Assembly (NCBI RefSeq): GCF_000317145.1
Contig: NC_019697.1
Location: forward strand, 1,488,001 to 1,552,000
Direction of reading: 5' to 3'
Source: Chamaesiphon minutus PCC 6605
Lineage (GTDB): Bacteria > Cyanobacteriota > Cyanobacteriia > Cyanobacteriales > Chamaesiphonaceae
DNA length: 64,000 nucleotides
Each line of letters starts with the position of its first letter. The stretch's first letter is position 1. The notes beneath the pieces are model-generated. The model worked only from the letters and a program-made list of their open reading frames with translations. It did no database searches and was not told where the DNA came from. Of this stretch, positions 9,865 to 32,874 are shown one piece after another. The translations under genes were made by a program, and so were the position numbers.

Positions 9865-9887
9865 ACGATTACTCCTTAATAACTGTC

Positions 9888-10703
9888 TTATTTAATATTG
9901 GTAATTGAGATCACTTCTAAACCCTCAGCACGAGCGATTTGAGCGGCTTTAGCAATGCCGATATCCTCATATTTACGAGTGACTTCCGATAATAGTGGTG
10001 GTGGCACCGCTCGCACTGTCATCTCAACGTTGATGTTTAGTTTCTTTGGTTGCTCGTTAGAACTATTAACGATTAATTGAGTGCCAGCAACTTTGACCTT
10101 CCATTTCCCCGCACCTAGAGATTCTGGCTCACTAACTTGCTCGACTAGATAAGCCGTTTGCACCGATTTGTTGCCATTTCCCTGCACGATCGATTGCAGT
10201 TCGCCCAATTCTTTGCGGTAACTATTAGCAAATTCTGGATCGAGGGCGAGAGTGTAGCGATATGCAGTAGTTGGAATCTTTTTTCCTCCTTCTACAGCGA
10301 TACCAGGATCGGGAATATTGCCCTGTTCGGGCAGAGTGTTGCGCCAAGTGTAAATACCACTCATGGTTTTTTGAACGAAGAATTTAATCAGCGTTGGCGA
10401 TCGATCGTTCCCCGTGAAAAATTCGAGTGTTTCTGTCTCGCCATTACCTTTCGTAATGAATGTCGGCATCGATCGCGAAATCGCAGCAAATAACATCCCG
10501 ATAATCGCTACGCCGAAAAATATATTAATAACAAGCAGCCCGAAGGTTGCCAGCTTCCAACCAGTAATAATATTTTTAGAACGGATTGTTTCGGAACTAT
10601 CTACGATATATTCCTCGCGATCTTCTCTCGAATCATGGATGACTAGTGCCGATGCAGGTTCGTCACTTTGTGGAATAAAATTTGTTATTTGTCTAACTTT
10701 CAT
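9888..10703 (-). CDS. VirB8/TraE-like inner-membrane type IV secretion protein
   Basis: 271 residues. A cytoplasmic N-terminus of about 50 residues precedes one membrane segment (LATFGLLVINIFFGVAIIGM). A periplasmic domain with conserved spacing for a VirB8/TraE-type NTF2-like fold follows (FFVQKTMSGIYTWRN, LALDPEFANSYRKELG, LNINVEMTVRAVPPPLLSE). It lies between the VirB6- and VirB10-like genes, where an assembly-nucleating bitopic protein is expected. The assignment rests on topology and order rather than a strong motif. It starts 41 bases below the VirB6-like stop. Confidence 0.7.
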   Translation of the reverse strand: MKVRQITNFIPQSDEPASALVIHDSREDREEYIVDSSETIRSKNIITGWKLATFGLLVINIFFGVAIIGMLFAAISRSMPTFITKGNGETETLEFFTGNDRSPTLIKFFVQKTMSGIYTWRNTLPEQGNIPDPGIAVEGGKKIPTTAYRYTLALDPEFANSYRKELGELQSIVQGNGNKSVQTAYLVEQVSEPESLGAGKWKVKVAGTQLIVNSSNEQPKKLNINVEMTVRAVPPPLLSEVTRKYEDIGIAKAAQIARAEGLEVISITNIK

Positions 10704-10744
10704 TGTTTTATAATAAGGCGATAAATGAATGGTTGAAGCTATAA

Positions 10745-11932
10745 TTATTTTGCCAGTTTAGTCATGGATGGTTTCATAAATCCGATAATCTCGCCTGCAA
10801 CTTGAGCTGCAAGTGCGTAGATACCCGCGCCCCCTCCTCTCGCAATTACCCCAGCCAGGATCGGTGCGCCGATCGCAAAACCCAGTTCTAAGCTATAGGC
10901 TGGCTGGCTCCCCGATGTATTGGCATTAATAAAACCAAGACAAGCACCCAAAATTGTCATCGAGAACTTGAAAATACCCAAACCCCACAGTGAAGCAAAC
11001 CAAATCTCCAGTGGTTTGGTATTAATAAATGAGAATGCTAATGGGATCGGCAAAGCCAAAATTGACAAAATAAAACCTTCATCTGCTAATTCGCCAACGA
11101 CAACCGACCAACCATCTAATATGGCACCAACTAACTTATCTCTGAGCCATTTATCTGGGTCTTTGACAAATGAAACAAATTGATTCCAAACGCTATCGTA
11201 ATCGTATGAATCGACAAGGCTATTCATTTTGGCTTCTGTGTCGGCTAATTGGGCGACAAGTGCGGGATCTGTTACCGATAACTTAGCGGCGACAACCATC
11301 GTTTTTACGTCTTTAGTACACTGAACGTAGGCTGGATTTGGAATTACGTTACCTACTTTGGTAGAATCGGGATCTGCGATAGTTTTTGGTAACTTGATAC
11401 AAACCTGCATTTGATTACTAATCGCCTTAATAGTGGCATCGTTAGTTTTAATTGCGGCAAGTTCGGCATTGACACTGCCTAATAATTTAGTAGTGGTCGC
11501 GATCGAATTATCGATCCCTCTAATCAGGGCGTAATTACCAACTGCGAAAACACGCGCTCCATAGGCATTGCCTACGAACATAAATGCGATCAGCATTAGC
11601 GTTAAAATCCGAACTAGATGATTTTTGAGGTTGTCAAAAGATAAATCGGGGATTATCGGAATCAGCCACCACAATACGCCAACTCCAGCAATAACTTTAC
11701 ATGGCTCGGTAATTGCCATCCAAAAAGTATCGGTCATCGATGCTGCGTTGCCAGTAATTAGGATGCTAATTATCTTAAAGAGTGCTTGTTCGTACTCACT
11801 TGCAATTACAGCAGGATCGGTTGAAGCAAGAATTGTAGTGTGAAGGATATCGACAAACAAAATAGTTATGCTCCATTTCAGGAGTTGATAGTTGAGAGTT
11901 GATAGTTGAGAAATATGAATTAAATCCAGCAA
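10745..11932 (-). CDS. VirB6/TrbL-like polytopic membrane protein
   Basis: 395 residues with several membrane segments (about 70-85, 105-125, 275-290, 300-330 and 345-370) and a long soluble loop from about 130 to 260. VirB6/TrbL proteins form the inner-membrane part of the translocation channel, and this gene lies between the ATPase and VirB8-like genes as expected. The first ~20 residues (HISQLSTLNYQLLKW) are encoded by a heptanucleotide repeat (11882-11910), and the frame overlaps the virB4 stop by 13 bases. The true start may therefore be further in, near residue 20, and the repeat may have altered the N-terminus. Confidence 0.75.
   Translation of the reverse strand: MLDLIHISQLSTLNYQLLKWSITILFVDILHTTILASTDPAVIASEYEQALFKIISILITGNAASMTDTFWMAITEPCKVIAGVGVLWWLIPIIPDLSFDNLKNHLVRILTLMLIAFMFVGNAYGARVFAVGNYALIRGIDNSIATTTKLLGSVNAELAAIKTNDATIKAISNQMQVCIKLPKTIADPDSTKVGNVIPNPAYVQCTKDVKTMVVAAKLSVTDPALVAQLADTEAKMNSLVDSYDYDSVWNQFVSFVKDPDKWLRDKLVGAILDGWSVVVGELADEGFILSILALPIPLAFSFINTKPLEIWFASLWGLGIFKFSMTILGACLGFINANTSGSQPAYSLELGFAIGAPILAGVIARGGGAGIYALAAQVAGEIIGFMKPSMTKLAK
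11882..11910. repeat. Heptanucleotide short tandem repeat (AGTTGAT type)
   Basis: About four units of a GTTGA(G/T)A-like heptamer lie at the junction of the virB4 and virB6-like genes. Such heptamer arrays are common in cyanobacterial genomes. Here it encodes part of the predicted N-terminus of the VirB6-like protein. Confidence 0.75.
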
Positions 11933-14900
11933 ATATTACTCGATGCACACAACCGAGCGCGAGCTTTGATTTTGTTAGCTTCGAGATAAGTATCGCTGAG
12001 GGCATTCATGGTTGCCTCCACACGTTTTTCCTCGTCCTCGGCGAGATTTCGCTGTTGTACCAGCGCGTTGTGCTTGGCTTGATTTTCTCCTTGAGATAGA
12101 TTGGCAAGCCCGATCGTATTTGCGGTAGCACCCATAATCAAACTCTGTGAGAGCATATTATTCATCGCCCCCATGCGGTTAAAACTGCTACCTGCTTTGG
12201 CACTGAGATCGGCTTGAGCGGCACCTGTTGCCAATGTGGAATTATTAGCATCGCCAGTCGCACTCATAATTGAGGAAACTGCTTTGTTGGTATTTTGGCG
12301 ATTGGCTTCTGCTACGCTACTTCCAGATTTTTGTTTACCCAAATCTATTTGAGCGATGACAGCTTTGGTGTCTAAGCCTTTGCCATTAAGTAGGTTTGAA
12401 GCCTGATAAGCAATCATCTTGCCTGTCGGGTCGTCGGTTTTGACGCTACCATCTGCATTCAACGGTTGGATATTACCCGCTGCATCGAGTCCGTAACTGA
12501 GGCTGTCGCCAATTCTGCCGATGAGGTGGTATGAAAGTGCGTCCTTAATTTTCTTGCCACCCGCACTCCCGAACACGCTCGTCGGCTCCTGTGCGGCAAT
12601 CATCAGGCGCATTCCCGCTTTGAGTCCGTTGGCTGCGACCCGCCCGACACAGAGTGAGAGCGGATCGAGATCGAAGGTAATCGATGCTTCGTCGATGAAT
12701 AATAGAGATCCCTTTCCACTAGCAGCGGCAATCGCCCGTCGCATTGCCGCTGCGTACATAATCGTGCCGAATACAGCGGCATCATCGTTGTTACTGACTC
12801 CCCGCATCGCGATCGTCATGAGGGGACTATCGAGTTTGACGGTACTGGGCGAGTTGATACTTTTGCCGTAAGAGCCATCGATCCATCGTTGTAGTTGCAA
12901 CTGGATCGTGCCAAGGGTCTGAATGTCATCGGCGGTTGCCTCCTTGGGATTTATCCGCTCGATCGTGCAAAACCGCTTGAAGTCAGACAGCACTGGATAA
13001 TCCTGCCAAGCTATAGAGCCAATCCCCCCATTTATGGCTCGCTCGTAACGAATCAAGATCCGCTCGTCCTTGAAGAAGTTCTTAATCGCAGTTGTCAGCA
13101 TCGAAATAACTTTGCTGCTACTTACGCCCTTGAGTTCGCCCTTCCAGCCCAGAACCATTGAAGTCAGGATTTGAAGAATGAACTCTTCATTCTGTCTTTT
13201 CATGTCCTCGCGAGTCTCTGGATCGATATCTTCAGCGATTAATGGTGTCTCGAAGAAGTTAATCGAGTCGTTAAAAACATCGATATAAGCCCCATTCATG
13301 TGTTCGGTAAAAGCTCTGAACGAACTAGCTTCCTTTGTCGGTGGTTGGTCTAGAATCGTGACAGGAATTTGTTGACTCAGTGCTTTATGGATGTTGAATG
13401 CTGCATATAACGTTTTACCCGATCGAGTTTTACCCCAAATCGCAGTGTGTCCCATGTGGGTGAAGGGATCGAAATAGACGGGTGAACCTCCTTTATTCGC
13501 AATAAATTCGATTCCAGATTTGTGAGCGTTAACTGTTGTTGTTAATGGAAAGTAAGCTGCGACGACTTCAGGACGCTCGCGATCTCGTCTGTCGCGGACA
13601 TCTACCAACATCGACTTACCGTAAAATGGTAGGGATGATACCCACAGCGAATCAGCAGTATCTACTTCCAGGAGCAGGATTGCTGGCGAGCGAAAATGCG
13701 AGCAAAAATCGCGAGCGGCAAAGTGCATCTCCTCCAATGTTTCTCTATAGACGAACATACAGAGCGAAAACTCCACACTCGTATCCCCACCGATTAACAT
13801 CCGCTCGGTTTCCAGGGCTTCTTTAAGTTCCTCGTCTGCCAAAACGTCAATTTGTCCTTTTTCCTCTGTTTCTTTCTTGCGGTAATGATTTTGCCGAATG
13901 AGTTGCTGGTTGTTATAACGAACGCCGAACTCTTCAGGACGCGATAGCTCTAGCACGATTCGATAATCGTAAGCCGAGCTAACTGCCATCAAATTTGATA
14001 GATAATGCAGTTGAACTTGTTGATACGATTCGTTACCCGCTTCTTCAAATACTTTGGGTTGAAGTTTCAGCAGCAGACTACCGACATAGCGACGATCGAC
14101 TTTGATATGGTCGCGGTTGGAAGATGGTACCGCAGAGGGATAGCGCATCATTACCGTAGTTGGATGCAGTTGCGTCCGTACGTTTTCGCCGATCGTCCCT
14201 TTTTGCAGATCGAACTCGATTAATTGTGGTGCTGGCTCTGGTGCGAGTTCTTCTACCCGATCGTTAAACCGATTGAGTTCTTTCCAGCAATGCTGCCATA
14301 CCTCTTCACCAGATAAAGGAGTGGCTTTGAGTTGAAGTTTATCTCGAAATAAATTCGACCATTCAAAAAAGCCTTGCTCGTAGGCATTAAGTAAAACTGC
14401 ATCGATCGTTTGTTGGCGTATTTCCTCGATCGATCCCGATAGTCTTTGATACCAAAGAGAACCGTATTTGATGATTTTCTCGATGAGCTTTTGCTCTCGC
14501 GCTCCCAAGTTAGGGGTAAAAGTGCCCATCAAAAATACTTGGTGAGGGCGACGTTGACCGCTAGTGTCGAGATTTTGTAAAATCAGCATTTCCTCAGCGA
14601 TTAATGGCTGAGATTGAGAAGATGCTGTTTCAAATTGAGCGATTAATTCATTCAGGCGGTCGGTACGATCGCAAAACGATTGGAATTCAACGCGCAACTT
14701 CTCACCGATCGGTAATTCGTGCCCTAAAGAGGCGATCGAGTTAACGATCGACCTAGCCGCGACTTCACCAAAATCATCGTGAATGCCTGGACATTCCCAA
14801 ATAAAGCGCAATTTATATTCTGGCTTGTCAATTTCATGACTGGTATTTAGCAATAAGGCACCAACTTGAGTTCCATTTGGCAAAGTATAATTGATGATAC

Positions 14901-15024
14901 TTTGCAAATGAGTTGAAGTTTCCAGGGGATAGAGCAGTTTCTTTTTGTCGCTCAAACCTTGATGTTTGATTTTTCTTAGTTCTCGCTTTTGGTTTAGATG
15001 TTTATTGATTTCCTTGTTTTTCAT
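11920..15024 (-). CDS. virB4: VirB4/TraC-type conjugation ATPase
   Basis: 1034 residues, somewhat longer than usual VirB4. The N-terminal half lacks membrane segments. The C-terminal ATPase has Walker A GKTRSGKT at 531-538 and Walker B LLFIDEA at 774-780, both intact. VirB4 is the energy-supplying ATPase at the base of the type IV channel and extracts pilin from the membrane. A C-terminal extension of about 180 residues (from about 850) rich in Ala, Asn and Gln, predicted helical, follows the core domain. It is downstream of the VirB2/VirB3-like genes, the normal order. Confidence is high because both nucleotide-binding motifs and the size fit. Confidence 0.92.
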   Translation of the reverse strand: MKNKEINKHLNQKRELRKIKHQGLSDKKKLLYPLETSTHLQSIINYTLPNGTQVGALLLNTSHEIDKPEYKLRFIWECPGIHDDFGEVAARSIVNSIASLGHELPIGEKLRVEFQSFCDRTDRLNELIAQFETASSQSQPLIAEEMLILQNLDTSGQRRPHQVFLMGTFTPNLGAREQKLIEKIIKYGSLWYQRLSGSIEEIRQQTIDAVLLNAYEQGFFEWSNLFRDKLQLKATPLSGEEVWQHCWKELNRFNDRVEELAPEPAPQLIEFDLQKGTIGENVRTQLHPTTVMMRYPSAVPSSNRDHIKVDRRYVGSLLLKLQPKVFEEAGNESYQQVQLHYLSNLMAVSSAYDYRIVLELSRPEEFGVRYNNQQLIRQNHYRKKETEEKGQIDVLADEELKEALETERMLIGGDTSVEFSLCMFVYRETLEEMHFAARDFCSHFRSPAILLLEVDTADSLWVSSLPFYGKSMLVDVRDRRDRERPEVVAAYFPLTTTVNAHKSGIEFIANKGGSPVYFDPFTHMGHTAIWGKTRSGKTLYAAFNIHKALSQQIPVTILDQPPTKEASSFRAFTEHMNGAYIDVFNDSINFFETPLIAEDIDPETREDMKRQNEEFILQILTSMVLGWKGELKGVSSSKVISMLTTAIKNFFKDERILIRYERAINGGIGSIAWQDYPVLSDFKRFCTIERINPKEATADDIQTLGTIQLQLQRWIDGSYGKSINSPSTVKLDSPLMTIAMRGVSNNDDAAVFGTIMYAAAMRRAIAAASGKGSLLFIDEASITFDLDPLSLCVGRVAANGLKAGMRLMIAAQEPTSVFGSAGGKKIKDALSYHLIGRIGDSLSYGLDAAGNIQPLNADGSVKTDDPTGKMIAYQASNLLNGKGLDTKAVIAQIDLGKQKSGSSVAEANRQNTNKAVSSIMSATGDANNSTLATGAAQADLSAKAGSSFNRMGAMNNMLSQSLIMGATANTIGLANLSQGENQAKHNALVQQRNLAEDEEKRVEATMNALSDTYLEANKIKARARLCASSNICWI

Positions 15025-15073
15025 GGTGACAAATAAACTAAAGTATTTAAACCAACAGATTCGGTAATAAGTT

Positions 15074-15403
15074 CTAAGATATTTTCTTTGGATGAATATC
15101 GATCGACTGAGGAGTTAAATTTGAAAGTGGCGAACGATAATTCAAGCATCCTCTGGTATAGTTCTTTGGCCTTCTATTTCTTGCCAGTACATCTGCCATT
15201 CCATCTTTGAGTGAAAGTATGGCTGTGAAAAATAAAGTCACAAAAATAGCTGCAACGATATTGGCCGGAACCTTCAAATATCCTAGAAATAGACAGAAAA
15301 CTACGATCAGAGCCAAGACTATGGCAACATCGCGAGGGATACCCATCATCTTCGCTCTGCGTCTTAATGCTCGATTAACTTCGATTCGTGTCTTTCTTTC
15401 CAT
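15074..15403 (-). CDS. VirB3-like small membrane protein
   Basis: 109 residues. A basic N-terminus (RRRAKMMGIPRD) precedes two adjacent membrane segments (VAIVLALIVVFCLFLGYL and IVAAIFVTLFFTAILSL). A polar C-terminal tail includes RNRRPKNY. The two-helix hairpin preceded by a short basic region, encoded between pilin-like and VirB4 genes, is the signature of VirB3/TraL, which anchors VirB4 to the membrane. The coordinates leave 50 bases before virB4. Confidence 0.75.
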   Translation of the reverse strand: MERKTRIEVNRALRRRAKMMGIPRDVAIVLALIVVFCLFLGYLKVPANIVAAIFVTLFFTAILSLKDGMADVLARNRRPKNYTRGCLNYRSPLSNLTPQSIDIHPKKIS

Positions 15404-15421
15404 GAATAGATACCGCTTGAA

Positions 15422-15847
15422 TTATGCACCAGTGAACATAAAGGTAACGATCCGATCTGTCGCAATGACTAGAATTACGAGGACGATGATATTTAACATC
15501 GGCTTGACCACGCCAGAAAAATTTTCTCGATCGTATTCCTGATAGCCTAAATAAGCCTGCCAGATGGCAATACCACCGACTATTAGCAATACAGCCCAAG
15601 GGATCAGATTGACAATGGCAGTAAACAGAGTAGTAAATAGCGGACCTGCGACTGGGAATCCAGCCATGATCGTGGCAATTTTAGTAGTCGATACGGTTAC
15701 GAAAGCATCGTAGATTGGGGCGGCATCAGCTTTAGGAGCTAAGTTCCATCCCCAAATAATTGGGGAGAAACAGGAAATCAAGGCATACCGAACATATTTC
15801 CAAGAAATCTTATTTCTAGGTTTGCTTAACGAAGTGGCGTGGTTCAT
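15422..15847 (-). CDS. VirB2-like pilin/prepilin
   Basis: 141 residues, first gene of the operon. A long N-terminal leader includes a hydrophobic part (ALISCFSPIIWGWNLAPKADA) with a possible cleavage after ADA. Two hydrophobic helices follow (about 55-90 and 115-140), separated by a short polar loop (QEYDRENFSG). This topology matches VirB2/TraA/TrbC pilins, which are processed and packed into the conjugative pilus. The sequence itself is not strongly diagnostic. The start ATG at 15847 follows about 430 bases of non-coding DNA that should hold the operon promoter. Confidence 0.75.
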   Translation of the reverse strand: MNHATSLSKPRNKISWKYVRYALISCFSPIIWGWNLAPKADAAPIYDAFVTVSTTKIATIMAGFPVAGPLFTTLFTAIVNLIPWAVLLIVGGIAIWQAYLGYQEYDRENFSGVVKPMLNIIVLVILVIATDRIVTFMFTGA

Positions 15848-19829: not shown

Positions 19830-19886
19830 TTATTCTGGAAAGACGATCGAAAACTTGCTGCCTTCACCTAATGTCGATCGCGAGCA
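19830..19886 (-). pseudogene. C-terminal scrap of a second histidine kinase
   Basis: The minus strand encodes TLGEGSKFSIVFPE then stop, the usual end of a hybrid or sensor kinase ATPase domain. Upstream sequence no longer continues the domain. With the opposite-strand kinase remnant beside it, this marks the ruins of a signalling locus. Confidence 0.45.
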
Positions 19887-20110
19887 GGAACCCATAGAAC
19901 CCATTTGAGATCTTTGATGTGTTCGATTCTCCAAAGGAGAGGTTGCACCAACGAAATCATGTGTGAGTCGGATAGCATCAAGCGAGCAACTTCTGCGTTG
20001 GCTGTTCTTTCAGCATCATTATGAAAATACATTAAATATAGTTACAAATAGGACTAAATTCAACAAACTAATTCTAGGTCGCGATTGGACTGAATCTTGT
20101 CCGCCTAAAT

Positions 20111-20226
20111 ACCCAATCTGGGGTATTATACGGATAATTGTCGGGCTAATGCCGCTATTTGCGAGGGAATATGCAGACAGTTATCGGGATATTCACCCAA
20201 TTTGGGGTGTTATGCGGATAACTTTC
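20111..20226. repeat. Two directly repeated 32-bp sites with internal dyads (possible recombination site)
   Basis: Sites at 20111-20142 and 20195-20226 share ACCCAAT(C/T)TGGGGT followed by TTAT(A/G)CGGATAA. Each contains a CCCAA/TTGGG dyad; the second is followed by TCCGCATAA, forming TTATGCGGA...TCCGCATAA. The arrangement resembles recombinase or transposase binding sites, but I cannot assign a family. An open frame across it (19963-20244) merely translates the repeats and is not called as a gene. The gap 19804-20463 holds no intact gene. Confidence 0.55.
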
Positions 20227-20269
20227 CGCATAATAAATAGTTAGACGCTTCAAACGTAAAAATTACCGG

Positions 20270-20400
20270 AAAGCTACGTGATACGGAAACGGTCATGCGT
20301 AGTTTGGAGGGGGGTGGTTGGAAAAGTACCAGTAATGGTAACTCGCTGGCTACCTACCCTACTTTACGTACGGCTCTGAGGAGAGGGAGGGGGATATATC
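20270..20400 (+). mobile_element. Possible group II intron 3'-end relic
   Basis: The stretch TTTACGTACGGCTCTGAGGA near 20369-20388 resembles the distal half of bacterial group II intron domain V (CGTACGGTTCTGAGG type). It is preceded by a G-rich segment like those found after intron reverse transcriptase genes. No reverse transcriptase is left. It lies about 70 bases upstream of the lipid-chemistry cluster. Recognition is from memory of such ends, so it is tentative. Confidence 0.35.
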
Positions 20401-20463
20401 TAAAACCATCTCCTTTACCCGACTTTCCAAAAAAGACAAAAACGTTCTCAGGAGAAGATTCAG

Positions 20464-20889
20464 ATGCCATTTTTGAGGATTGAGACCAATCATGAATTTA
20501 ATCAAGATGTCATCCAAAATGTCATCACTCAGGTTACGGATCAAGTTCATATCAATAAAGGAGATCCTAAAGAGATGATTTTGGTTGTTGTTAACACCAA
20601 GGTCAATGTTGCTTTTGGTGGGGATTACGACAAACCTGCTGCTGTTGTCCAACTTCTCAGTCTGAAAATGTCTGCGGAAGTCACCAAAAAATTGACAGAA
20701 TGCATCAGTGATATTTTATTAGAAAGATTTAATGTACCAGCTAATCGTATGTACATCTTCTTTCAGGAATTTACGCAGATGCATCTGGTTGGCTGGAATC
20801 GTAAGATTTTTACGGAAATCTTAGGAGTTGAGAACTTAGATTCACCAGAATTAGCTCAAAAACAAGCAGAAGCGCAAAAAAAAAGCTAG
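20464..20889 (+). CDS. MIF/phenylpyruvate tautomerase family protein
   Basis: 141 residues. It begins Met-Pro (MPFLRIETN); in this superfamily the Pro is exposed after Met removal and acts as the catalytic base for keto-enol tautomerisation. GGDYDKPAAVVQLLSL and the late NRMYIFFQEF match the MIF-like fold. The protein is about 20 residues longer than typical MIF, with an Ala/Gln/Lys tail. AGGAGAAG precedes the start. The gene is 40 bases upstream of the lipoxygenase-like gene in the same direction, so the two probably share a transcript. The substrate is unknown; an enol or dienol from lipid oxidation would suit the context (inference). Confidence 0.88.
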   Translation: MPFLRIETNHEFNQDVIQNVITQVTDQVHINKGDPKEMILVVVNTKVNVAFGGDYDKPAAVVQLLSLKMSAEVTKKLTECISDILLERFNVPANRMYIFFQEFTQMHLVGWNRKIFTEILGVENLDSPELAQKQAEAQKKS

Positions 20890-20929
20890 CATCAATCAAT
20901 CTTTAAAATTAGTAGGAGAAATATCAAAA

Positions 20930-22936
20930 ATGAGCAACTTTATCCAAAGAATTCTTTCTGGTGAAATTTCCCTAGAAGAATATACAGATAACGAAAAGGA
21001 ACGCCTAGTCTCTCAATTGATCTCCCATTTACCTGTTGGTTCTCTGTTAAAGGTAAGAGAACAGTTAAAGGGTAATATCGTTAACCAATCACACAAAGCG
21101 ATTGGCAAAATTGTTCATTCTGTCTCAACAATACCTATCCCTGGTTTAGAAGTTGAGTTGTGGGATCACGATCTTTTCGGGATGAAAGATTTTTTAGGCA
21201 GTGGGATAACAGATCAGCATGGAGGTTTTGAAATATTTTACGATCCGAAAGCTGCTGGATTTGGGGATGATCCAGATTTGGAATTAAGGATTTTTGATCC
21301 TCCTCAAACTGCTGTTGTCGAAGGAAAATCCATCAGAAGAAAAAACTTGATTGAAGTCATCAAGGGTTCTGACAAGGTCAAAGAAGAAATTTATAACTTT
21401 GGACAATTGTCAATTTCTTACTATGAGTATGATCCAGATTATGCTCAATACTTCCCCTATTGTGTGCCCAAATCTATTAAGCATGATTTTGTGCCCCAAG
21501 CTTATGCCATAACAATAAAATCTGTTGCCAAATATGAACAGATCATGGACGGAATAATTCAAAAAAATCGAATAAATCCTAACGAACCATCCTATGATGA
21601 GATCCAAAAATCATTTCCAGAAACTCGAACTATCATTTTAGAAAGAGAAAATCCAGGCTGTACCAGAAGTGATGAATTCTTTGGAGACAGGATGTTAAAT
21701 GGGTTTAATCCTGTTATTTTTAAGAAAGATAAAAACAATCCTTCCTTATATACCACTTCTTTTAATGGCGAACAATTTGAACTGACTGGTAAGATAGATT
21801 TGCCGAATTATAAAGTCAAATTTGAATTAAGAAATGAGCAACTGTTCCCTGTTGAAATTACGCTTCAATTCCGTGAAAATAATGCGAAAAAGCCAAATCC
21901 TCCATTAAAAGAACCCCAAACTTACAGGCCTGTTGATGGGAAAAAATGGTTGCAGGCTAAGCGAGTCATTCGTGCTACTCATCTGGGTGTTTTAGGAGAA
22001 GTGAAAGCTCATCTGAGTCAATGTCACTTTAATATGGAGCAGTATTCGATCTCTTTGTTGAGAAATGTCCGCAAAAATCCAGTGCGTGACTTCTTATATC
22101 CTCACCTCAAAGAAGTAGTCCATATTAACAATTTTGGTCGGCGAATATTGATGGATCCCAAGGGTGGATTTTTCGCTAAACTTGAGCCTATGCCTATCAT
22201 TCCAGATATGTTGAAGTGGGTCAGGTCAAATTTAGGAAGTTATGACTGGACTGATTGGCAACCCAGAACCCCCCTTTGTGAGTCACATACTTACGCCAAA
22301 ATCGGTAACTTATACTGGGATATTCTGACTACTCATGTCGATTCATTTTTTGACGAGCATCGTGACGGAATTATCAGCAATTGGGATGAAATTTTCACGT
22401 TTTCTGAGGATTTAGTTCAACATAGTGTTGCTCATGTTGCTCTGACGATGGAGCAGGTAGATGATGGAGATGAATGGTATGACTTAAATGAGATTGATCA
22501 TTCTTCAAATCCTCGTCGAGAGGTTAATGGAGAGGTCAAAGCAGTCCGACCGATTACTTCATCGACAACAGCAACTGAACAAGATATCGCCAATCTTAAA
22601 CAGGTTTGTAAATACGTAATTTATCAAACCACCTATTGGCATAGTTGTATTCACAATGAGCATAATCCTGAGTTTGCCGAGCTAAAATACGGAGCTCTCT
22701 TAAGCAATGGCTCAATGGGTGATGAAGATGATGAGAGTGTAATGCCAGGTCAGGAAGCAGCAAGTATTATTCTTGGAGCTTCTAATATGCTGACCGATTT
22801 CAGGTACGGTTACATACTTAAAAATGAGGATGGAGACGTTCCGCCTAAGTTGATTGAATTGGTTGCAAGCAAAAAAGCAGAATTTGAAAAACTTGGATTC
22901 GATCTCAACACCCTGCGTTCAAGATTGAATAGTTAG
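20930..22936 (+). CDS. Lipoxygenase-like non-heme iron protein
   Basis: 668 residues. Residues ~55-130 form a transthyretin/beta-sandwich-like region (GLEVELWDHDLFG). The C-terminal half resembles lipoxygenase: H361-x4-H366 (AHLSQCH) matches the first two iron ligands, followed by YPHLKEVVHINNFGR (about 390-404), which parallels the plant/animal HPxxxxxxxxxINxxAR segment. A third ligand pair is H571-x3-H575 (YWHSCIHNEH), similar to the animal type His-x3-His. Lipoxygenases add dioxygen to polyunsaturated fatty acids. Unlike standard enzymes the C-terminus is RLNS, not a terminal Ile that would be the last iron ligand. Hydroperoxide formation is therefore likely but unproven. AGGAGAAA precedes the start. 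Confidence 0.75.
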   Translation: MSNFIQRILSGEISLEEYTDNEKERLVSQLISHLPVGSLLKVREQLKGNIVNQSHKAIGKIVHSVSTIPIPGLEVELWDHDLFGMKDFLGSGITDQHGGFEIFYDPKAAGFGDDPDLELRIFDPPQTAVVEGKSIRRKNLIEVIKGSDKVKEEIYNFGQLSISYYEYDPDYAQYFPYCVPKSIKHDFVPQAYAITIKSVAKYEQIMDGIIQKNRINPNEPSYDEIQKSFPETRTIILERENPGCTRSDEFFGDRMLNGFNPVIFKKDKNNPSLYTTSFNGEQFELTGKIDLPNYKVKFELRNEQLFPVEITLQFRENNAKKPNPPLKEPQTYRPVDGKKWLQAKRVIRATHLGVLGEVKAHLSQCHFNMEQYSISLLRNVRKNPVRDFLYPHLKEVVHINNFGRRILMDPKGGFFAKLEPMPIIPDMLKWVRSNLGSYDWTDWQPRTPLCESHTYAKIGNLYWDILTTHVDSFFDEHRDGIISNWDEIFTFSEDLVQHSVAHVALTMEQVDDGDEWYDLNEIDHSSNPRREVNGEVKAVRPITSSTTATEQDIANLKQVCKYVIYQTTYWHSCIHNEHNPEFAELKYGALLSNGSMGDEDDESVMPGQEAASIILGASNMLTDFRYGYILKNEDGDVPPKLIELVASKKAEFEKLGFDLNTLRSRLNS

Positions 22937-23100
22937 AGTTCAGGGATCGGTTCAGTCATCTGAAGTAATTCTAATAATGACTGTTCCGACCGTCCATATT
23001 GGCAAATATTGCCGATGCAAAGAGCGATCACACACATTAACAATTTTCAGGTTGGAACAACGCCAGTTCTACCTGATCCTCAATAATAAGGAGAAAATCA

Positions 23101-23621
23101 TGCCCGGTACAAATGAAATAGATCAGTTGGAATATGGACAATGGATTTCTTTAAAAAAGGTGGAAGTTCTCCCCCTTGATATTGACTATTATTGGTCAGC
23201 TTACGATGATTATTTCGCTTATCTTAGTGCCTTAAGCGGCCGCACAGATGTACAAAAAGAAATAGGCTTTGGAAAGCCTGACAACAGCCCAGGTGCTATT
23301 GTTAGTTTTAACTTTGAGGGGATGAGAGTTTATGATCGCTTAGTAATGAATGATCGGGTAAACCATGTGTGGAAATTAGATATATCACAGGCGACTGAGC
23401 TATTTACCCTCTATCAAGTCACTACTCTTGCTAAGAAGGTTGACAATGGTACGGAAGTTACTGTTCTCGTTGAATTCGTTCTGCAAAGTGAAAAACGAGA
23501 GGAAAGAGAGGAAGCCCTCAATACTTTCAAAAAATACTTTGGATTACGCTCCTCTGAGTTACAGAACTTCCTGAAAACAAGAGACGGAGATAAATACTAT
23601 GAGCTTCCTCAGACTAACTAG
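23101..23621 (+). CDS. SRPBCC/START-like protein (possible cyclase or lipid-binding protein)
   Basis: About 173 residues from the ATG at 23101, preceded by AAGGAGAAAATC. A longer frame from 22977 lacks such a site and its added segment looks random. The sequence alternates beta strands and helices, including ALSGRTDVQKEIGFGKPDN, GMRVYDRLVMNDRVNHVWKL and a long TLAKKVDNGTEVTVLVEFVL strand pair, and fits an SRPBCC helix-grip fold. Such proteins bind hydrophobic ligands or act as cyclases and aromatases. It is the third gene of the lipoxygenase cluster. Family placement is by fold-like pattern, so moderate confidence. Confidence 0.65.
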
Positions 23622-23765
23622 CAATAGTGATGGATGTAAGAATTGAAGCTAAGTCGCATCTATCGGGACTTAGGCAAAAATTTGTTGTAAAAAGGGCTGA
23701 AAGTCTCTTGTCTCTAAAAGTTGTCTAAGTCCTGCTATGTAATTCATGTTTAGGAGAAACACCTT

Positions 23766-24512
23766 ATGACAGGTAAGTTAGTAGGAAAAGTCGCGTTAGT
23801 CACAGGTGCTTCATCGGGCATCGGTGAGGCGACAGCCATAGCCATAGCCCAAGAAGGGGTATCGGTCGTTCTAGTAGCACGCCGCGCTGACAGACTCGAA
23901 AAGTTACTCAGGCATATTTCGGACAACGGTGGACAGGCTATCTCAATTGTTGCTGACGTAGCTGATGAAATGCAGGCGCACGATATGCTACACAAAGCCC
24001 ATACTCAATGGGGGCGCGTAGATATCCTGGTAAATAACGCAGGTGTCATGCAATTAGGCTTGATTGATGGTGCCAATACAGAAGAATGGCGCAGCATGAT
24101 TAATATCAACTTTCTTGGATTGATGTATGCTACCCATGCAGCCTTACCAATAATGAAGGCACAGGGCGGAGGGCATATTATTAATATTTCCTCTACTGCT
24201 GGTTTAGAAGCAAATGCCAACACTGCTGTATATTCTGCCACAAAATTTGCCGTAGGTGCTTTTACAGAAGCCCTGCGCAAGGAAAACCACAGTCATAAAA
24301 TTCGCGTTACCCTGATCGAGCCAGGTGCAGTAGCGACTGAACTGGGTGCTCAGATTACAGATCCTGAAGCAAAAGCATGGGCCGAGGCGTGGATACAATC
24401 AAAAACCCCTCTCGCCAGTGAGGACATTGCAGCAGCCATTGTTTATGCGGTCACTCAACCACCGCACGTCAACGTCAATGAAATTGTAGTCAGACCAATA
24501 GATCAACAATGA
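23766..24512 (+). CDS. Short-chain dehydrogenase/reductase
   Basis: 248 residues, normal length for classical SDR. The NADP-binding motif TGASSGIG is at about 13-20 with ARR after the second strand, favouring NADP(H). The structural NNAG motif is present (ILVNNAGVMQ), and the catalytic Ser-Tyr-Lys is in INISSTAG and VYSATK. It oxidises or reduces a hydroxyl/carbonyl group, and in this setting could act on a hydroxy or oxo fatty-acid product (inference). The start is preceded by TTTAGGAGAAACACC. Same orientation as the flanking lipoxygenase and SnoaL-like genes. Confidence 0.9.
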   Translation: MTGKLVGKVALVTGASSGIGEATAIAIAQEGVSVVLVARRADRLEKLLRHISDNGGQAISIVADVADEMQAHDMLHKAHTQWGRVDILVNNAGVMQLGLIDGANTEEWRSMININFLGLMYATHAALPIMKAQGGGHIINISSTAGLEANANTAVYSATKFAVGAFTEALRKENHSHKIRVTLIEPGAVATELGAQITDPEAKAWAEAWIQSKTPLASEDIAAAIVYAVTQPPHVNVNEIVVRPIDQQ

Positions 24513-24591
24513 GCGTTTCTTGGTCTTGGTTCAATTATTAGTTCAATGAATCAAACTCAATTCACATCCCTTAGCTAAAAATCAACGATCA

Positions 24592-25044
24592 ATGAGTAAC
24601 TTAGTACCTCCAACAGAATCTGAAGTTAGACAGCTTGTAGACGAGTTTTATGCAAAACTTGATGCTCATGCCCCAGTAGAAGAATACATCGATTTATTTG
24701 CCTTTGGTGAACCCGATCTAATCCTCCAATTTCCTGGCATTACATTGACCAGTTGGGAGCAGTTTAAACCCTGGTATGAAGGTACTCTCAACGAGTTTTT
24801 TGATGAAGTTCATGCTGCCGAAAAAATTGAACTTACAGCTAACAATGAACAAGCAGATATCAAGGCAGTAGTCCATTGGGAAGCTAGTCGATGGAAGCCA
24901 CCAGCTGCACATAGTCAAAGGATTGTTGCGTCTGTCGATCAAAGCTGGGTTGTGATTCGTTCCCCTGAGACACTGAAAGCTGTATTTAAACAGTACATTG
25001 TATACAAACTAAATTATCTTAATAGTTCTACTCAGTCAAAATAA
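24592..25044 (+). CDS. SnoaL/NTF2-like small protein
   Basis: 150 residues. A helical N-terminus (EVRQLVDEFYAKLDAHAPVE) precedes a strand-rich half with FPGITLTSWEQFKPWYEGTL and ADIKAVVHWEASRWKPPA, typical of the NTF2/SnoaL cone fold. Such proteins act as cyclases, isomerases or ligand binders, with no universal catalytic motif. It follows the SDR gene by about 80 bases and belongs to the same gene series. The reaction cannot be read from the sequence. Confidence 0.7.
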   Translation: MSNLVPPTESEVRQLVDEFYAKLDAHAPVEEYIDLFAFGEPDLILQFPGITLTSWEQFKPWYEGTLNEFFDEVHAAEKIELTANNEQADIKAVVHWEASRWKPPAAHSQRIVASVDQSWVVIRSPETLKAVFKQYIVYKLNYLNSSTQSK

Positions 25045-25113
25045 GCATTTTGAGAACTAGGCAAAGATTAATCTTGCACATTGAGGATGATCTGTTACAC
25101 AGGAGGATAAATT

Positions 25114-25266
25114 ATGACCACTAGAGTTGGCATTTTACTCGTACATGGGATTGGTGAAACGAAGAAATTTGAAAACATAGAGGCAGTTGCTAGAAATATT
25201 GCTGCTGCTTTGCTTTCAGATCCATGTCTCAAAGTGCGGGTGATTATCAGCTTCGGGGGAACATAA
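25114..25266 (+). pseudogene. N-terminal fragment of an alpha/beta hydrolase (lipase/esterase type)
   Basis: 50 codons from an ATG with a strong AGGAGG at 25101-25106. The sequence GILLVHGIGETKKFENIEAV is the oxyanion-region start of alpha/beta hydrolases (LVHGIGET). After about 45 residues it runs into unrelated sequence and stops. The catalytic triad is missing. It is probably the stump of a lipase gene deleted within the cluster. The good ribosome site suggests recent loss. Confidence 0.7.
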
Positions 25267-25335
25267 TTCTTCGGGCAAGACTAAAAATGACTGATATCAC
25301 CATTAAATCTATAAAAAATTATAAGGAAAGAAAAA

Positions 25336-26772
25336 ATGGCAAAGCTTGTGGCAATCGGCGATAGCCTTACTCAAGGATTTCAGAGTGGTGCGATTTTGAA
25401 AACAGAGTGGTCATACCCCAGTATGATTGCTCGCGCTCTTGGTTTGTCAGTCCCTACTGATTTTCGTATTCCTAGCTTTTTTGGTAGCGGATTACCCATA
25501 AATATAGAAGAACTCCTTAGATTTATGGCAACCGAACTGGGAGATGAAATATCGATAGATGAGTGGATTTTGCGTTTTCCTATTCTCTTAGAGCGATTCA
25601 TTGATGATGTAGAAGATTTATATGAAAGAGGGAGAGGACGCAAGCCTTCAACTTTTAGAGGTCAATTCCATAATCTTGCCGTATGGGGTTTTCGAGTATT
25701 AGACACTTTCAGGATCAATTCAGAATATTGCGATCAGGTAATTAAGAAAAGTGAAGGCTGGATTGAAGATGATTTTCTTGGTCTGCCCAATGCTCCAATG
25801 TACCGAACTGCTCGGATTGTATTGAATCCTGCTAAAGAGAAAGATAAAGGAACTTGGACTCAGATTGATAATCTTCAGGCAATCAATGATAAAGAGGGAG
25901 TAGAAAATTTAATTATTTGGCTAGGTGCAAATGATTGTCTTGGAACAGTTGGGAGTTTGAGTCTCAAGGAAATGCCATCTACTTTTTCTAGTGAAGTTCC
26001 TGAAGAAAGAGGTAAGTTTAACTTAACTCACCCTGACATTTTTAAAAAAGACTACGCCACTCTCATTGCCAGCGTTAAGGCGGCGATCTCTGCTGATACT
26101 CGTGTGTTTGTAGGCACGATACCTTATGTTACCATTCCACCAATTACTCAAGGAATTGGCAAACTGCCAGCAGATAGCAAATACTTCGATTACTACGGAA
26201 GATTCTTTGCAAACGAGCACAATTTCAATCCTTTTTTTAATAGTAAATTGACGGGCGCAGAGATTGAAAAAATTGATGCAACTGTTGATGAATTCAATCA
26301 AATCATTCGTAGTGAAGTTTCTTCAGCAGGCGATAATTTCCATCTCGTCGATCTGGGTGGAATCTTAAATAGCCTCGCAGTCAAACGCAACCACTTGACT
26401 AATTCTCCAGATGAACCACTCAGAGCATATTATCAGTCTTTAGGTTTGAGCGACCATCCTCTTCTCAGCTTAGATCCTGTTCCCAATGCCCTATTATTAA
26501 AAACTCAAAATAGCACCCGAAAAAGTGGTGGGCTTTTTAGTTTAGATAGTGTGCACCCTTCAACCATTGGTTATGGTATTGCGGCTGAAGCTTTCTTAAG
26601 AAAGATGCAAGATGTAGGAGTTAAAGATGCTAATCCTTTACATCTTGACTGGAGGCAGATCATTGCTCAAGATTCTCTTCTTCAGTCCCCACCAGCATTA
26701 TGGGATGACATCATTAATGGGGCTGAAAGGAATTCCATTCTTTGGGATGTTATTTTCAAGGTTCTTGGTTGA
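25336..26772 (+). CDS. SGNH/GDSL-family hydrolase
   Basis: 478 residues with no clear signal peptide. Block I is AIGDSLTQGF (about 7-16, nucleophile Ser). Block III is WLGANDC, with the Asn of the oxyanion hole, about residue 199. Block V is DSVHPSTIGYG, with Asp and His of the triad, about residue 425. All four SGNH residues are present, so an active esterase or lipase is expected. The protein is larger than typical GDSL enzymes (200-350) because of an insertion between blocks I and III. It ends the lipid cluster and could release a fatty acid from, or attach one to, an ester (inference). AAGGAAAGAAAA precedes the start. Confidence 0.88.
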   Translation: MAKLVAIGDSLTQGFQSGAILKTEWSYPSMIARALGLSVPTDFRIPSFFGSGLPINIEELLRFMATELGDEISIDEWILRFPILLERFIDDVEDLYERGRGRKPSTFRGQFHNLAVWGFRVLDTFRINSEYCDQVIKKSEGWIEDDFLGLPNAPMYRTARIVLNPAKEKDKGTWTQIDNLQAINDKEGVENLIIWLGANDCLGTVGSLSLKEMPSTFSSEVPEERGKFNLTHPDIFKKDYATLIASVKAAISADTRVFVGTIPYVTIPPITQGIGKLPADSKYFDYYGRFFANEHNFNPFFNSKLTGAEIEKIDATVDEFNQIIRSEVSSAGDNFHLVDLGGILNSLAVKRNHLTNSPDEPLRAYYQSLGLSDHPLLSLDPVPNALLLKTQNSTRKSGGLFSLDSVHPSTIGYGIAAEAFLRKMQDVGVKDANPLHLDWRQIIAQDSLLQSPPALWDDIINGAERNSILWDVIFKVLG

Positions 26773-26932
26773 TAAACTCGTATGAGTATATTGTGCCAAC
26801 AGGGAAAAGTCCCTTAATGATACCTGTTCTTAGCCGAGATTAGGCAAGCTAAAATTGTTGACTTTATTTTTGAGTCTGTAGAAGTTATAGGCGATCGTAT
26901 AGGGGACAATAGCGAGAGGAGATCGGAGTATA

Positions 26933-28894: not shown

Positions 28895-30078
28895 AATTTG
28901 CTCCCATTGGTTCCGAAATGGTGTTTTGTTGAAGAGGTAGCATTTTACTTTTGGTTATATGCTCGATCTTAATAATTGCGATCGAACTATCGTGCTTTTA
29001 CCTGGCTTTATTTAGCCGCATCCGCACCGAGATTACCCAATTTTGGACTCCACCACTGCCCCTCATTACCCTGAAAATAGGCAACATCCTTGTGTTTGGG
29101 CTTGGTTCTAGCTTCCGCATCCGAACACCGCAGCATTGACTTTTCTTTTCCATCCTTCGTGTAACTATATTCTTCCAGCGGCTTCTGACAAACCGGACAA
29201 GGATGTTCGGTTAGCTTTGCTGGCGATGACTGCTCGGTTTTAGGTTGCGGAATCTGCCATTCATTCGCTCGCTCCGACCAAAACATTACTAATCCCTTAC
29301 CCTCAGTATCTTTGCAACCATCCTCACACTTGAGAAAATAACCCTTCTTCACCTTCTTGGTTGGTACTTTGGACATTGGCTTGCTGCAACTCGGACATTT
29401 AGAGCGCGATTTCTCCAGCTCTTTACCCTGGAACGAGCCATAATCTTGCTCCGGTAAATTCTTAGTAGCTTTACTTAATGCTGGCGCAAAATAGCTCCGG
29501 TTCCACTCAATTAGATAACTTTGCCATTCCTGCTGACCCTTGGAGATCGCATCCAGTTGAGTTTCCATCCCAGCGGTGAATTCCGATTGAATCAATTCTG
29601 GCAAAGCTTGCATCAGAAAATCATCCACTTGTAAACCCACAGTCGTCGGTTGCACTTTGCTCTTGACTAACTCCACATAATTACGTTGTTTGAGGGTGGC
29701 AATTGTCGGCGCATAAGTCGAAGGACGACCGATGCCTCGCCGTTCCATCAGTTGAACGAGTTTTGGTTCGGAGTAGCGCGGCGGTGGTTGGGTTTGTTTC
29801 TGCTCGTAACTGATATTATCTGCGGTAAGTGATTGTTTGGGTTGCAAGCTAGGCAATACGGCATCACCGCTAATATCTTTCCAATATTTGGCATATCCCG
29901 CAAATTCGAGCATTTGTCCTCTGGCTTGCCACTGGATTTCACCAGATTGGGTAACGATCGTGGTTTTGCGAATTTGGGCAGGCTTACACTGGGATGCGAT
30001 CGATCTCATCCAAATCATCAGATACAGCGCAAATTCATCCTCTGAAAGCTGCTGTTTGAGTTCGCTTGAGGCTTTATA

Positions 30079-30185
30079 CCAAATCTAAAAAGTTAGACTA
30101 CAGATAAATTCTAAAATTTGCTCATCCCCTTTATAAGGGGAGATTGGGAGGGGTAAAGATCTGTAGCCGTAATTTAGAGAATTGG
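30079..30185. mobile_element. MITE derived from the neighbouring IS630-type element
   Basis: 107 bp with imperfect ~27-bp terminal inverted repeats (CCAAATCTAAAAAG...CTACAGAT and ATCTGTAGCCG...GAATTGG) flanked by TA on both sides. The ends match those of the IS at 30241-31433. The inside has no coding capacity. It sits inside topA about 55 bases from the complete element. Confidence 0.85.
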
Positions 30186-30305
30186 TATAAATTGCCTCTT
30201 GACAATTAACATAATCGCTTCGCGGACTAAATATCTTATACCAATTCTAAAAAAAATGACTACAGATGTGAGAAGATAGCAACACCCATACCGAGCGAGG
30301 GCGAG

Positions 30306-30776
30306 ATGATGGCCGGAATATATAAAATCGAGATTGCCGAAACCGAACAAGAGCTTAAAAAAATGTTAGCGATCGAGAAAAGTGGCGCGAACAAAGAAAG
30401 AATTCAAGTTTTGTACTTGCTGTCGAGCAAACAAGTAAAAACCATCAAAGAAGCAGCAAGCATCATTGGCAGAAATCGAGTGACAGTACAAGATTGGCTG
30501 ACGAAATACCGTCAAGGAGGGCTAGAAAATTTATTAGCCAAAAAAGCTAGTAGTGGCCGACCAAGAACAATTCCTAAATGGGCAGAAAAATCTCTCATTA
30601 AGAGATTAGAATCGAGTGAAGGATTTAATAGCTATGGGGAGATTTGTGAGTGGTTGACAACTAAATTAGGAATAGAGGCGAAATATAAAACAGTACATCA
30701 ACTGGTTTATTATCGTCTGGGCGCATCACCTAAAATAGCTCGCGACTCGCGCTCGTCGGGTGTCCCGACGGTTTAG
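30306..30776 (+). pseudogene. IS630-type transposase, N-terminal part
   Basis: 156 codons giving the helix-turn-helix DNA-binding region (VKTIKEAASIIGRNRVTVQ) and the linker to the catalytic domain (INSYGEIC-like FNSYGEICEWLTTKLGIEAK). Translation ends a few codons into an inserted palindrome (30744-30782) that supplies the stop. The catalytic half continues at 30859. Confidence 0.85.
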
Positions 30777-30782
30777 CGAGTC
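30744..30782. repeat. Palindromic repeat inserted in the transposase
   Basis: Outer arms GACTCGC / GCGAGTC and inner arms GTCGGG / CCCGAC around TGT. It disrupts the transposase frame. GC-rich palindromes with similar GCG/TCGCGA-rich arms recur at 37,440-37,510 and 38,085-38,150, suggesting a dispersed repeat family. Confidence 0.75.
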
Positions 30783-30858
30783 AAGACAGACCAAAAAGTC
30801 TAGAGCAATCAGAATCAAGATTAGAGACTTTTAAAAAAACTTCGTAGGTAACCTAGCC

Positions 30859-31425
30859 ATGCTGAGTTTGGTCGCCATTGAGATGATGGGGCTAGGCGGT
30901 AAGATTAGATTCTTTTGTGAAGATGAAACCCGAATTGGATTAAAAACAATCAGCGGTAGAAAAATTACTGCTCAGGGTGTAAAACCTTATGGAAAGGTGC
31001 AGTGGCAGTTTAAAGCCACTTACATATATGGTGTGGTCGAACCAAAAACTGGAGAACACTTCTTTTATGAGTTTACTCATCTCAATAGCAAATGCTTTCA
31101 GATATTTCTAGAGTTAGTAGCTCAGGAATTTGCGGATAGTATTTTGATTATTCAGCTAGATAATGGTGGTTTTCACAAAGCTAAAAAACTCAAAATCCCT
31201 GCCAATATTATTCTCATGTTTCAACCGCCTCATTGTCCCGAATCTAATCCAATTGAACAGGTGTGGTCATATTTGAAAAGAGGCTTGAGATGGCAGCTAC
31301 CATCTTGTCTAGATGAATTGAGGCTGTTAATTACCGAGCGATTGGAGCAGATGACATCACCAGTGATTGGTTCAATCGTCGGACGAGCATCAATACTGGA
31401 GGCATTATCTGTAGTCGGTATTTAA
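30859..31425 (+). pseudogene. IS630-type transposase, C-terminal catalytic part
   Basis: 188 codons with the DDE core: first Asp in FFCEDETRIGLKT, second Asp in ILIIQLDNGGFHKAK, and Glu in HCPESNPIEQVWSYLKRGL. All three acidic residues remain. The frame is not joined to the N-terminal part because of the inserted palindrome. An ATG is available at 30859, but the DNA-binding domain would be missing. Confidence 0.87.
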
Positions 31426-32874
31426 AGAATTGGTATTAGTTATATCTGTCGGTCTGACCGCTTCATGGGCTTCCTGAGCATCTTTAGAACTGCGCTGTTT
31501 TGCCACCTTATTAGGCACATTGTCCTTATCATGAGACAACAACCATTCCCGTGCGGCTTTACAAAAATCCTGACTGAGTTCGACTGAATCAGTCCGCATA
31601 TAGGTGATTAACCCTGCTTCATAGAGCTTCTGGGCGACGGACATCGTATGTTCGGGACTGAACTTCAATCGCGCTCCAGCGGATTGTTGGAGCGACGAGG
31701 TGATAAAGGGAGCGGGTGGTTTTTTGGGAGCGAGTTTACCTTCGATCGATTTAACTTGATGGGGGTGCGCTTTGCCGATTTCTACCAACCTGTCGGCTTC
31801 AGCTTGACTCAGTACCCGCGTCGATTCGGCAACTTTTTCTGTCGCGCCAGCATCGTCACTAGTTTCTTCGTCTGGGGCTGGTGAAATAGATTGGGTAGTG
31901 CCGTTGTAGAAGGCACGGAAACCTTCGGCATAGTCTACAAATACCGACCAATAATCTTGAGGTATGAAGGTCTGAATTTCTCGCTCTCGCTGACAGACTA
32001 AGTGGAGAGTTGCTGATTGCACCCGTCCGACGCTTTTCGCACCGTTATTTAATCGCCAGATCAGCGGCGATCCTTTGTAGCCGACCAATTTATCCAAACA
32101 ATCGCGACACCTACCTGCCTCTACTAGAGCCATGTCGAGCGATCGAGGACTAGCAATTGCTTTCCTAACTGCGGACTCGGTAATCTCTTGATAGACAACC
32201 CGCTGGGGCTGTTTGAGTTTCAATACTTGAGCGATATGCCAGCCGATGACTTCGCCTTCCCGATCGGGATCGGAGGCGATGAATACTCGATCTGCTTGTT
32301 TGGCTGCGGCAATGAGTCCAGCGATCGTTTGTTTGGCGCGATCGTCGCGAGGGATATAGCGACAATCGATCGTGTCTACACCCAAATGGAAGCCTAACGC
32401 ACCATCCCCATCGTTGGCGAGTTGGCGAATATGCCCGATAGCGAAGCGCTGCCTTGGCAGGTCGATGCCTTTACATCCCAGTCGGAGCCGAGGATACTCC
32501 TAAGCTTTTTGATTTTGCCAGCAGATTCAACAATCAACAGATTTCGCATAAATTTAGGTGAACTGAGGATTTAACTAAACGATCGATCTTCACTCGATCG
32601 TTCGAGCCAAACCGATCTAATTACTGCTAATAACTAGTATATCGGTAGCGATCGTTCCATACTTTTATCGTCACCCCCACCAACGTCAACTCCACTAAAT
32701 CCCTTTTACTCCCGATCGATCCGATCGAATAGCGATCGCTTAATAGAGTTGACAAACCAGTTATAACAGGCTAAAAGTAAGACAAGCCCATAAAATAGCC
32801 CATGTAGTTATTTTCAATGGCTGTAAGCCTTGCATGACAAGGCTTGTGAATCTATTCTCTCTTCGTTGACATCG

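Follow-up and report, generated by a model that had tools for sequence, protein, structure and literature searches.

A putative oxylipin cassette around a serine-ended lipoxygenase, probably moved between cyanobacterial families

Genes at the locus

The region described here belongs to a 64,000-nucleotide stretch of Chamaesiphon minutus PCC 6605 (contig NC_019697.1, positions 1,488,001 to 1,552,000), which is analysed as a whole and termed the window. It lies within a contig of 6,284,095 bases, in a genome of 6.76 Mb assembled as 3 contigs. Between positions 20464 and 26772 of the window an initial annotation, made from the sequence alone, had placed seven plus-strand coding units and read them as a possible oxylipin-forming cluster around a lipoxygenase (LOX)-like gene. 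All seven are found at the positions claimed. The first five, together with their homologues elsewhere, are referred to below as the cassette.

20464–20889, plus strand: MIF-type tautomerase, 141 amino acids (Pfam MIF 44.7 bits, cut-off 22)
20930–22936, plus strand: LOX, 668 amino acids (PDB 5ek8 at E 3e-155, structural match, ligand columns)
23100–23621, plus strand: SRPBCC (helix-grip, polyketide-cyclase-like) protein, 173 amino acids, start corrected from homologues; assignment moderate
23766–24512, plus strand: SDR oxidoreductase, 248 amino acids (Pfam adh_short 207.2 bits, cut-off 26.6)
24592–25044, plus strand: SnoaL-like protein, 150 amino acids, conserved in 5/5 cassettes; assignment weak (SnoaL_4 below cut-off)
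25114–25263, plus strand: remnant of an alpha/beta-hydrolase-like gene, broken (tblastn, 89% identity over 46 amino acids)
25336–26772, plus strand: SGNH/GDSL hydrolase, 478 amino acids, a neighbour outside the conserved cassette (Lipase_GDSL 38.6 bits, cut-off 23.6)
19875–26892, no strand: island free of the word CGATCG, holding the cassette and the SGNH gene

The intergenic gaps inside the cassette measure 40 to 163 base pairs (bp), and from these coordinates a single operon is plausible. The longest SRPBCC frame runs from 22977 to 23621, but homologues begin at the ATG at 23100, and the predicted start should be moved there. No NCBIfam family was returned for the LOX, SRPBCC or SGNH proteins of the window.

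The lipoxygenase and its metal site

Judged from profile, homology and predicted structure together, the protein at 20930–22936 is a member of the LOX family with the LOX catalytic fold, as the initial annotation had supposed. The Pfam Lipoxygenase profile scores 29.1 bits (cut-off 23.6), with a match confined to residues 302–412, and homology to the closest solved relative, PDB 5ek8, extends over residues 41 to 667. A predicted model (mean predicted local distance difference test score, pLDDT, 80.7) aligns with 5ek8 at Z 49.1 over 612 residues, at 2.4 Å and 40% identity, and the remaining 49 structure rows shown are all LOX (Z 22.1–28.2). The PDB title of 5ek8 is 9R-lipoxygenase from Cyanothece PCC8801. 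The CspLOX1 residues Tyr360, Ile397, Gly401, Leu405, Ile617 and Leu621, as listed in Table 1 of PMC5437038, fall exactly on the LOX of locus L033, which is therefore taken as CspLOX1. A reading of 5ek8 as CspLOX2 was rejected from the residue numbers in the same paper and the PDB title; 5ek8 is CspLOX1. Four of these six clamp residues are the same in the window LOX (Ile399, Gly403, Leu407 and Leu621). Under the Coffa-Brash rule, as given in PMC5437038, a glycine at this position goes with R products, and Gly403 predicts an R-configured product. Iron binding and dioxygenase activity of the enzyme are putative.

The two motifs singled out earlier, H361-x4-H366 and H571-x3-H575, are exact and fall on the ligand columns of the family, with H361, H366 and H571 invariant in all 25 rows of the alignment. 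The fourth ligand position is His575 in all five cassette LOX and Asn in each of the 20 others, and the last residue is Ser (Ser668 in the window) in the same five, the others ending in Ile (15/20) or Val (5/20). The serine is encoded by AGT in the window and by AGC in the other four; it shares the last alignment column, next to an invariant N667. A tree built without these trait columns separates the five cassette LOX from the rest by a branch with 100/100 support and a stem of 0.89 changes per column, a topology for which the tree program warns of long branches. The terminal LOX residue is usually Ile and very occasionally Val according to a 2026 review, and the fourth ligand position may be His, Asn or Ser (PMC13059375).

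Among the matches listed in a Pfam search, 30 other cyanobacterial LOX (L061–L090) end in Ile (27), Thr (2) or Met (1), and none in serine. Loci L010–L030 were left out of this count; when each of these 21 is represented by its longest frame, 16 are LOX, all ending in Ile. The longest frame is not a LOX in L013–L016 and L026, the match lying in a shorter frame in four of them and covering only an N-terminal stretch in L026; that of L014 ends in Ser but, not being a LOX, was not counted. Two further relatives, L116 (35–37% identical) and L118 (40%), end in Ile (...RSRINI) and Val, and neither locus has a cassette partner at E 1e-4; L117, cut by a contig end, was left out. In L116 the LOX occupies 8623–10338, and a second, distant LOX-like frame of 805 amino acids lies nearby at 4164–6581.

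The altered residues bear on an alternative in which the serine-ended LOX is a hydroperoxide isomerase or dehydratase acting on peroxides made elsewhere, its iron site having traded O2 insertion for O–O cleavage. The enzyme eLOX3 is a functional parallel for a LOX of this kind. Such a role would suit the joint replacement of the last residue and of that at the fourth ligand position (Asn to His) in 5/5 cassettes, the stem of 0.89, the isomerase- and cyclase-type partners, and the lack of any P450 match in the window or the four other cassette loci. However, a His in this fourth place is nothing unusual for an active LOX (PMC13059375 and PMC11593649). In addition, the window LOX is the sole match to its own sequence in the genome (E 0.001), and the Pfam LOX search finds none there at 1e-10, leaving no obvious peroxide donor. 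An isomerase is considered unlikely, and a LOX that itself inserts oxygen is preferred.

The partner proteins

Two of the partners are readily assigned. The protein at 20464–20889 is a member of the MIF tautomerase family by its profile score above cut-off and by Pro2, a proline directly after Met in 5/5 homologues. Tautomerase matches occur in 54 of 388 class genomes (E 1e-6), the clade of the window protein (at least 84% identity) being present in 3, all cassette holders; the other matches listed are 22–29% identical. The SDR keeps G14, S143, Y156 and K160 in all four intact copies. We take Ser143, Tyr156 and Lys160 to be the catalytic residues, in a pattern of Ser, Tyr-x3-Lys and an N-terminal glycine motif. 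Its best PDB chain is 2jah, clavulanic acid dehydrogenase (E 1.9e-56).

The remaining two are held less firmly. The SRPBCC protein of the window has no Pfam match; its homologues in L040 and L041 match Polyketide_cyc2 at E 0.018, below cut-off, a match that in L040 is outranked by one to DNA_alkylation (E 0.01), which likewise stays under its cut-off. A poor predicted model (mean pLDDT 61) yields 50 structure rows at Z 7.1–8.5, mostly START, Bet v 1/PR-10, PYL and aromatase/cyclase (ZhuI, TcmN) folds, the rest mostly uncharacterised. Foldseek alone gives no match for this model at E 0.001, its list being mostly of Bet v 1- and START-type with some phosphoglucomutase rows, and a PDB search with the SRPBCC profile returns only three Myb chains at E of at least 0.7. 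The SnoaL-like assignment is weak, although the protein is conserved in 5/5 cassettes: the copy in L040 matches no Pfam family at E 0.5, and the best PDB match to its profile is an unrelated-looking chain at E 0.038. In L041 the SRPBCC and SnoaL-like proteins form a single frame of 334 amino acids, which suggests that the two work together.

The resemblance of the SRPBCC model to the aromatase/cyclases ZhuI and TcmN, and of the SDR to clavulanic acid dehydrogenase, would also fit a substrate that is not a free fatty acid, such as a polyketide or another polyene with a pentadiene unit, on which the SRPBCC and SnoaL-like proteins would act as polyketide-type cyclases. Against this stand the four of six clamp residues shared with CspLOX1, a fatty-acid LOX. 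Nor was a polyketide synthase noticed by eye, no profile search having been made, in the window frames or the listed cassette neighbourhoods. We regard this alternative as quite improbable, and the partners are discussed below as enzymes of a proposed fatty-acid-derived oxylipin pathway.

Occurrence in other cyanobacteria

The initial annotation had proposed recurrence of the neighbour set as a check on the cluster. Genes for the tautomerase, LOX, SRPBCC, SDR and SnoaL-like proteins lie side by side in five cyanobacterial genomes, that of the window included, a recurrence that rules out a chance neighbourhood.

Window: Chamaesiphon minutus PCC 6605; all five frames intact
L031: genome G095, of another family in the same taxonomic order; LOX 89% identical to that of the window; SDR truncated
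L039: Phormidesmis priestleyi BC1401; LOX 81% identical
L040: Synechococcales metagenome-assembled genome; LOX 81% identical
L041: Scytonematopsis contorta metagenome-assembled genome; LOX 70% identical; gene order varied

All five genes are present and adjacent in L039, L040 and L041. Across the phylum a LOX match was found in 41 of 386 genomes (E 0.001), two of them of cassette type (the window's own genome and G095). An order search found a match in 17 of 388 genomes (E 1e-40) and a class search in 9 of 329, with three of cassette type in each; these searches, whose genome draws overlap, add G412 and G727, identified from contig coordinates as L040 and L039. A pattern scan of genome contigs (84,980 species by the database description) returned 19 LOX loci; L039, L040 and L041 are the three of cassette type. 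At E 1e-40 the LOX finds no match in any of the eight other genomes of the host genus, which are 77–100% complete. Among viral contigs 21 stretches matched a pattern and none was confirmed, and a plasmid collection gave no match. The occurrence of the cassette among cyanobacteria is rare and patchy.

Transfer and selection

Scarcity of the word CGATCG had been read from the outset as a sign of transfer. The word is absent from 20464–26772 and occurs 258 times in the 64-kb window, which, rather than the whole genome, serves as the baseline; the gap at 19875–26892 spans 7017 bp, no other gap being longer than 1735 bp. With the other four cassettes the window shares DNA homology from 20447–20464 onward, a point that coincides with the first start codon or slightly precedes it. 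Between the window and G095 the LOX are 89% identical (synonymous divergence, dS, 0.33) and the TrpD-like proteins, so named by eye, 66%, a single housekeeping gene being a thin yardstick for transfer. Given the absence of CGATCG and this disparity in identity, the suggestion of transfer is strongly supported, and the cassette has probably moved between cyanobacterial families. CGATCG counts in the cassette and the measured flank are 1 and 15 in L039 and 6 and 22 in L040; there is no such contrast in L041 and little in L031. To the left of the cassette, the minus strand at 1542–15847 of the window holds a series of genes that by eye resemble conjugation genes (coupling-protein-like and VirB4-like) and could bear on the arrival of the cassette.

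The ratio of nonsynonymous to synonymous divergence (dN/dS; pairwise Nei-Gojobori, five cassettes) is 0.06–0.16 for the LOX across the six pairs, out of ten, with unsaturated dS; over all genes and computed pairs it peaks at 0.32, for SRPBCC between the window and L031. Such low values indicate that the genes are kept as proteins, and a pseudogene LOX is ruled out by them. They also bear on the proposal that the cassette is a decaying transferred island without present function in the host, a proposal prompted by the broken hydrolase of the window, the truncated SDR of L031 and the patchy distribution, with 0/8 other same-genus genomes holding a LOX match. With five intact frames in the window and every computed pair giving a dN/dS well under 1, decay is very unlikely, and a maintained cassette is the preferred reading.

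The right-hand boundary

The fragment at 25114–25263 corresponds to the start of a 536-amino-acid gene that is intact in L031. This hydrolase-like gene is intact and follows the cassette only there and in L040 (511 amino acids). The name alpha/beta hydrolase rests on motifs recognised by eye; the intact protein has only a sub-threshold FtsX match in Pfam, and a PDB search with its profile gives 0 matches. DNA homology between the window and L031 ends at 25249, and homology to L099, the SGNH locus of G446, starts at 25302, which places the switch in and just after the broken hydrolase. The closest SGNH homologue (87%) is in G446, a genome of the same genus with no LOX match at E 1e-40, and no SGNH match (tblastn, E 1e-3) was found in the 27 loci L031–L057. 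Thus, of the cluster as first described, the tautomerase, LOX, SRPBCC, SDR and SnoaL-like genes stand as members and the SGNH hydrolase does not. The step that frees a fatty acid would then rest on the hydrolase-like gene.

Two other features of the window were noted by eye. At 29008–32385 two minus-strand frames resemble parts of one topoisomerase gene and flank a transposase-like frame pair (30306–31425), and at 59469–62878 stand two tandem FAD-monooxygenase-like frames of 521 amino acids, probably a duplication.

A proposed pathway

The reading we favour, with moderate confidence, is that the five genes at 20464–25044, with a sixth, the hydrolase, broken here, form a laterally moving, heme-free oxylipin cassette, which probably makes an undescribed oxidised lipid. 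A lipase would free a polyunsaturated acyl chain, or the LOX may attack the chain directly. The LOX, which like the 9R-enzyme CspLOX1 has a glycine (Gly403) at the Coffa-Brash position, would form an R-configured hydroperoxide, with the serine carboxylate as a putative last iron ligand. Rearrangement or cyclisation of the product might fall to the SRPBCC and SnoaL-like proteins, the tautomerase might shift an enone or dienol, and the SDR could interconvert alcohol and ketone, in an order after the LOX step that we infer. Many sister clusters carry a P450, whose place the SRPBCC/SnoaL pair would take here, and no heme enzyme would be needed. The chemistry first envisaged, in which a fatty acid is freed, dioxygenated, isomerised, cyclised and reduced, is plausible on the gene content.

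Several observations weigh against this reading. Iron binding could suffer from the replacement of the terminal Ile by Ser, and the geometry of the serine lies in a low-confidence part of the model (residues 666–668, pLDDT <50). Nor are ends other than Ile or Val unique to the cassette LOX, as Thr is found in L082 and L077 and Met in L088. At E 1e-10 neither the window's genome (G000) nor G095 is listed among the matches to the Pfam LOX family, which sets the clade far from usual LOX. Among the partners, the SRPBCC model is poor, the SnoaL_4 match reaches 15.5 bits (E 0.018) against a cut-off of 24, and the SDR of L031 is reduced to residues 176–248. The hydrolase-like gene, broken in the window, has no match in L039 or L041, the contig of L039 ending 1.1 kb past the SnoaL-like gene.

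A bolder version is tentative and, on balance, doubtful: that the cassette LOX are a new class whose metal site of four His and a terminal serine has been fixed by selection, and that they feed a P450-free pathway of tautomerase, SDR and SRPBCC-SnoaL proteins to a new, possibly cyclic, oxylipin, the whole pathway being passed as one cassette from one cyanobacterial family to another. The enzyme families themselves are known; neither the gene combination nor the serine-ended LOX clade was found described in a literature search of titles and abstract openings with few subscription journals covered, and the same search found nothing linking Chamaesiphon with lipoxygenase. To our knowledge, little is known of cyanobacterial oxylipin pathways past the LOX step. 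A compact, conserved and mobile five-gene set would be a directly expressible pathway. The terminal serine would serve as a natural experiment on the weight of the last LOX residue for the metal site, and would make testable the choice between O2 insertion and peroxide rearrangement as a function of that residue.

Comparison with known systems

Closest in sequence is CspLOX1 (PDB 5ek8), with the 40% identity over 612 structurally aligned residues and the clamp residues Ile, Gly, Leu and Leu (4/6) given above. The window LOX differs from it in having Ser for the C-terminal Ile, His for Asn at 575, Leu362 for Tyr360 and Ala617 (Val in L041) for Ile617, and the gene neighbours of CspLOX1 differ from the cassette. 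CspLOX2, a bis-allylic 11R-lipoxygenase (PDB 5med), shares the catalytic fold (Z 27.4, 438 aligned residues, 3.0 Å), three His ligands and a Leu at the 258/362 position. It is only 16% identical to the window LOX and has Asn453, C-terminal Ile569 and Ala300 (PMC5437038).

The neighbourhoods of CspLOX1-type genes resemble the cassette in setting a LOX gene beside a lipase-type gene and modifying enzymes. A lipase-P450-LOX cluster, with a DUF2235/Tle1-like phospholipase-type gene, a P450 and a CspLOX1-type LOX, recurs at L032:5092–10055, L033:5982–10952 and related loci; some of its P450s carry an N-terminal extension with repeated units of about 45 residues (by eye). At L118:7923–8726 a lipase-like frame (by eye) adjoins a CspLOX1-type LOX, another lipase-LOX pairing. 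The sister group was counted as 17 distinct CspLOX1-type loci, leaving out L034 and L035 (duplicates of L044 and L054), the distant L038, L055 and L056, and the fragment L057. By Pfam names, 10 of these have a P450, 12 have a DUF2235/Tle1-like gene (reduced to a 78-residue match in one locus) and 14 have at least one of the two; the three with neither are L043, L048 and L051, L048 having only 135 bp before the LOX. Cassette partners occur in 0/17 at E 1e-10, and the five cassette stretches contain no P450 or DUF2235 match. The two LOX groups thus differ in outfit: one goes with a lipase-type gene and a P450, the other with a tautomerase, an SDR and a pair of small cyclase-like proteins.

In the coral allene oxide synthase-lipoxygenase the next step is carried out by a heme protein. 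This fusion (PDB 3dy5; its LOX matches the window model at Z 25.8) likewise couples a LOX genetically to the next step, but in the cassette the LOX is joined by a tautomerase, an SDR and the two small proteins of cyclase-like type.

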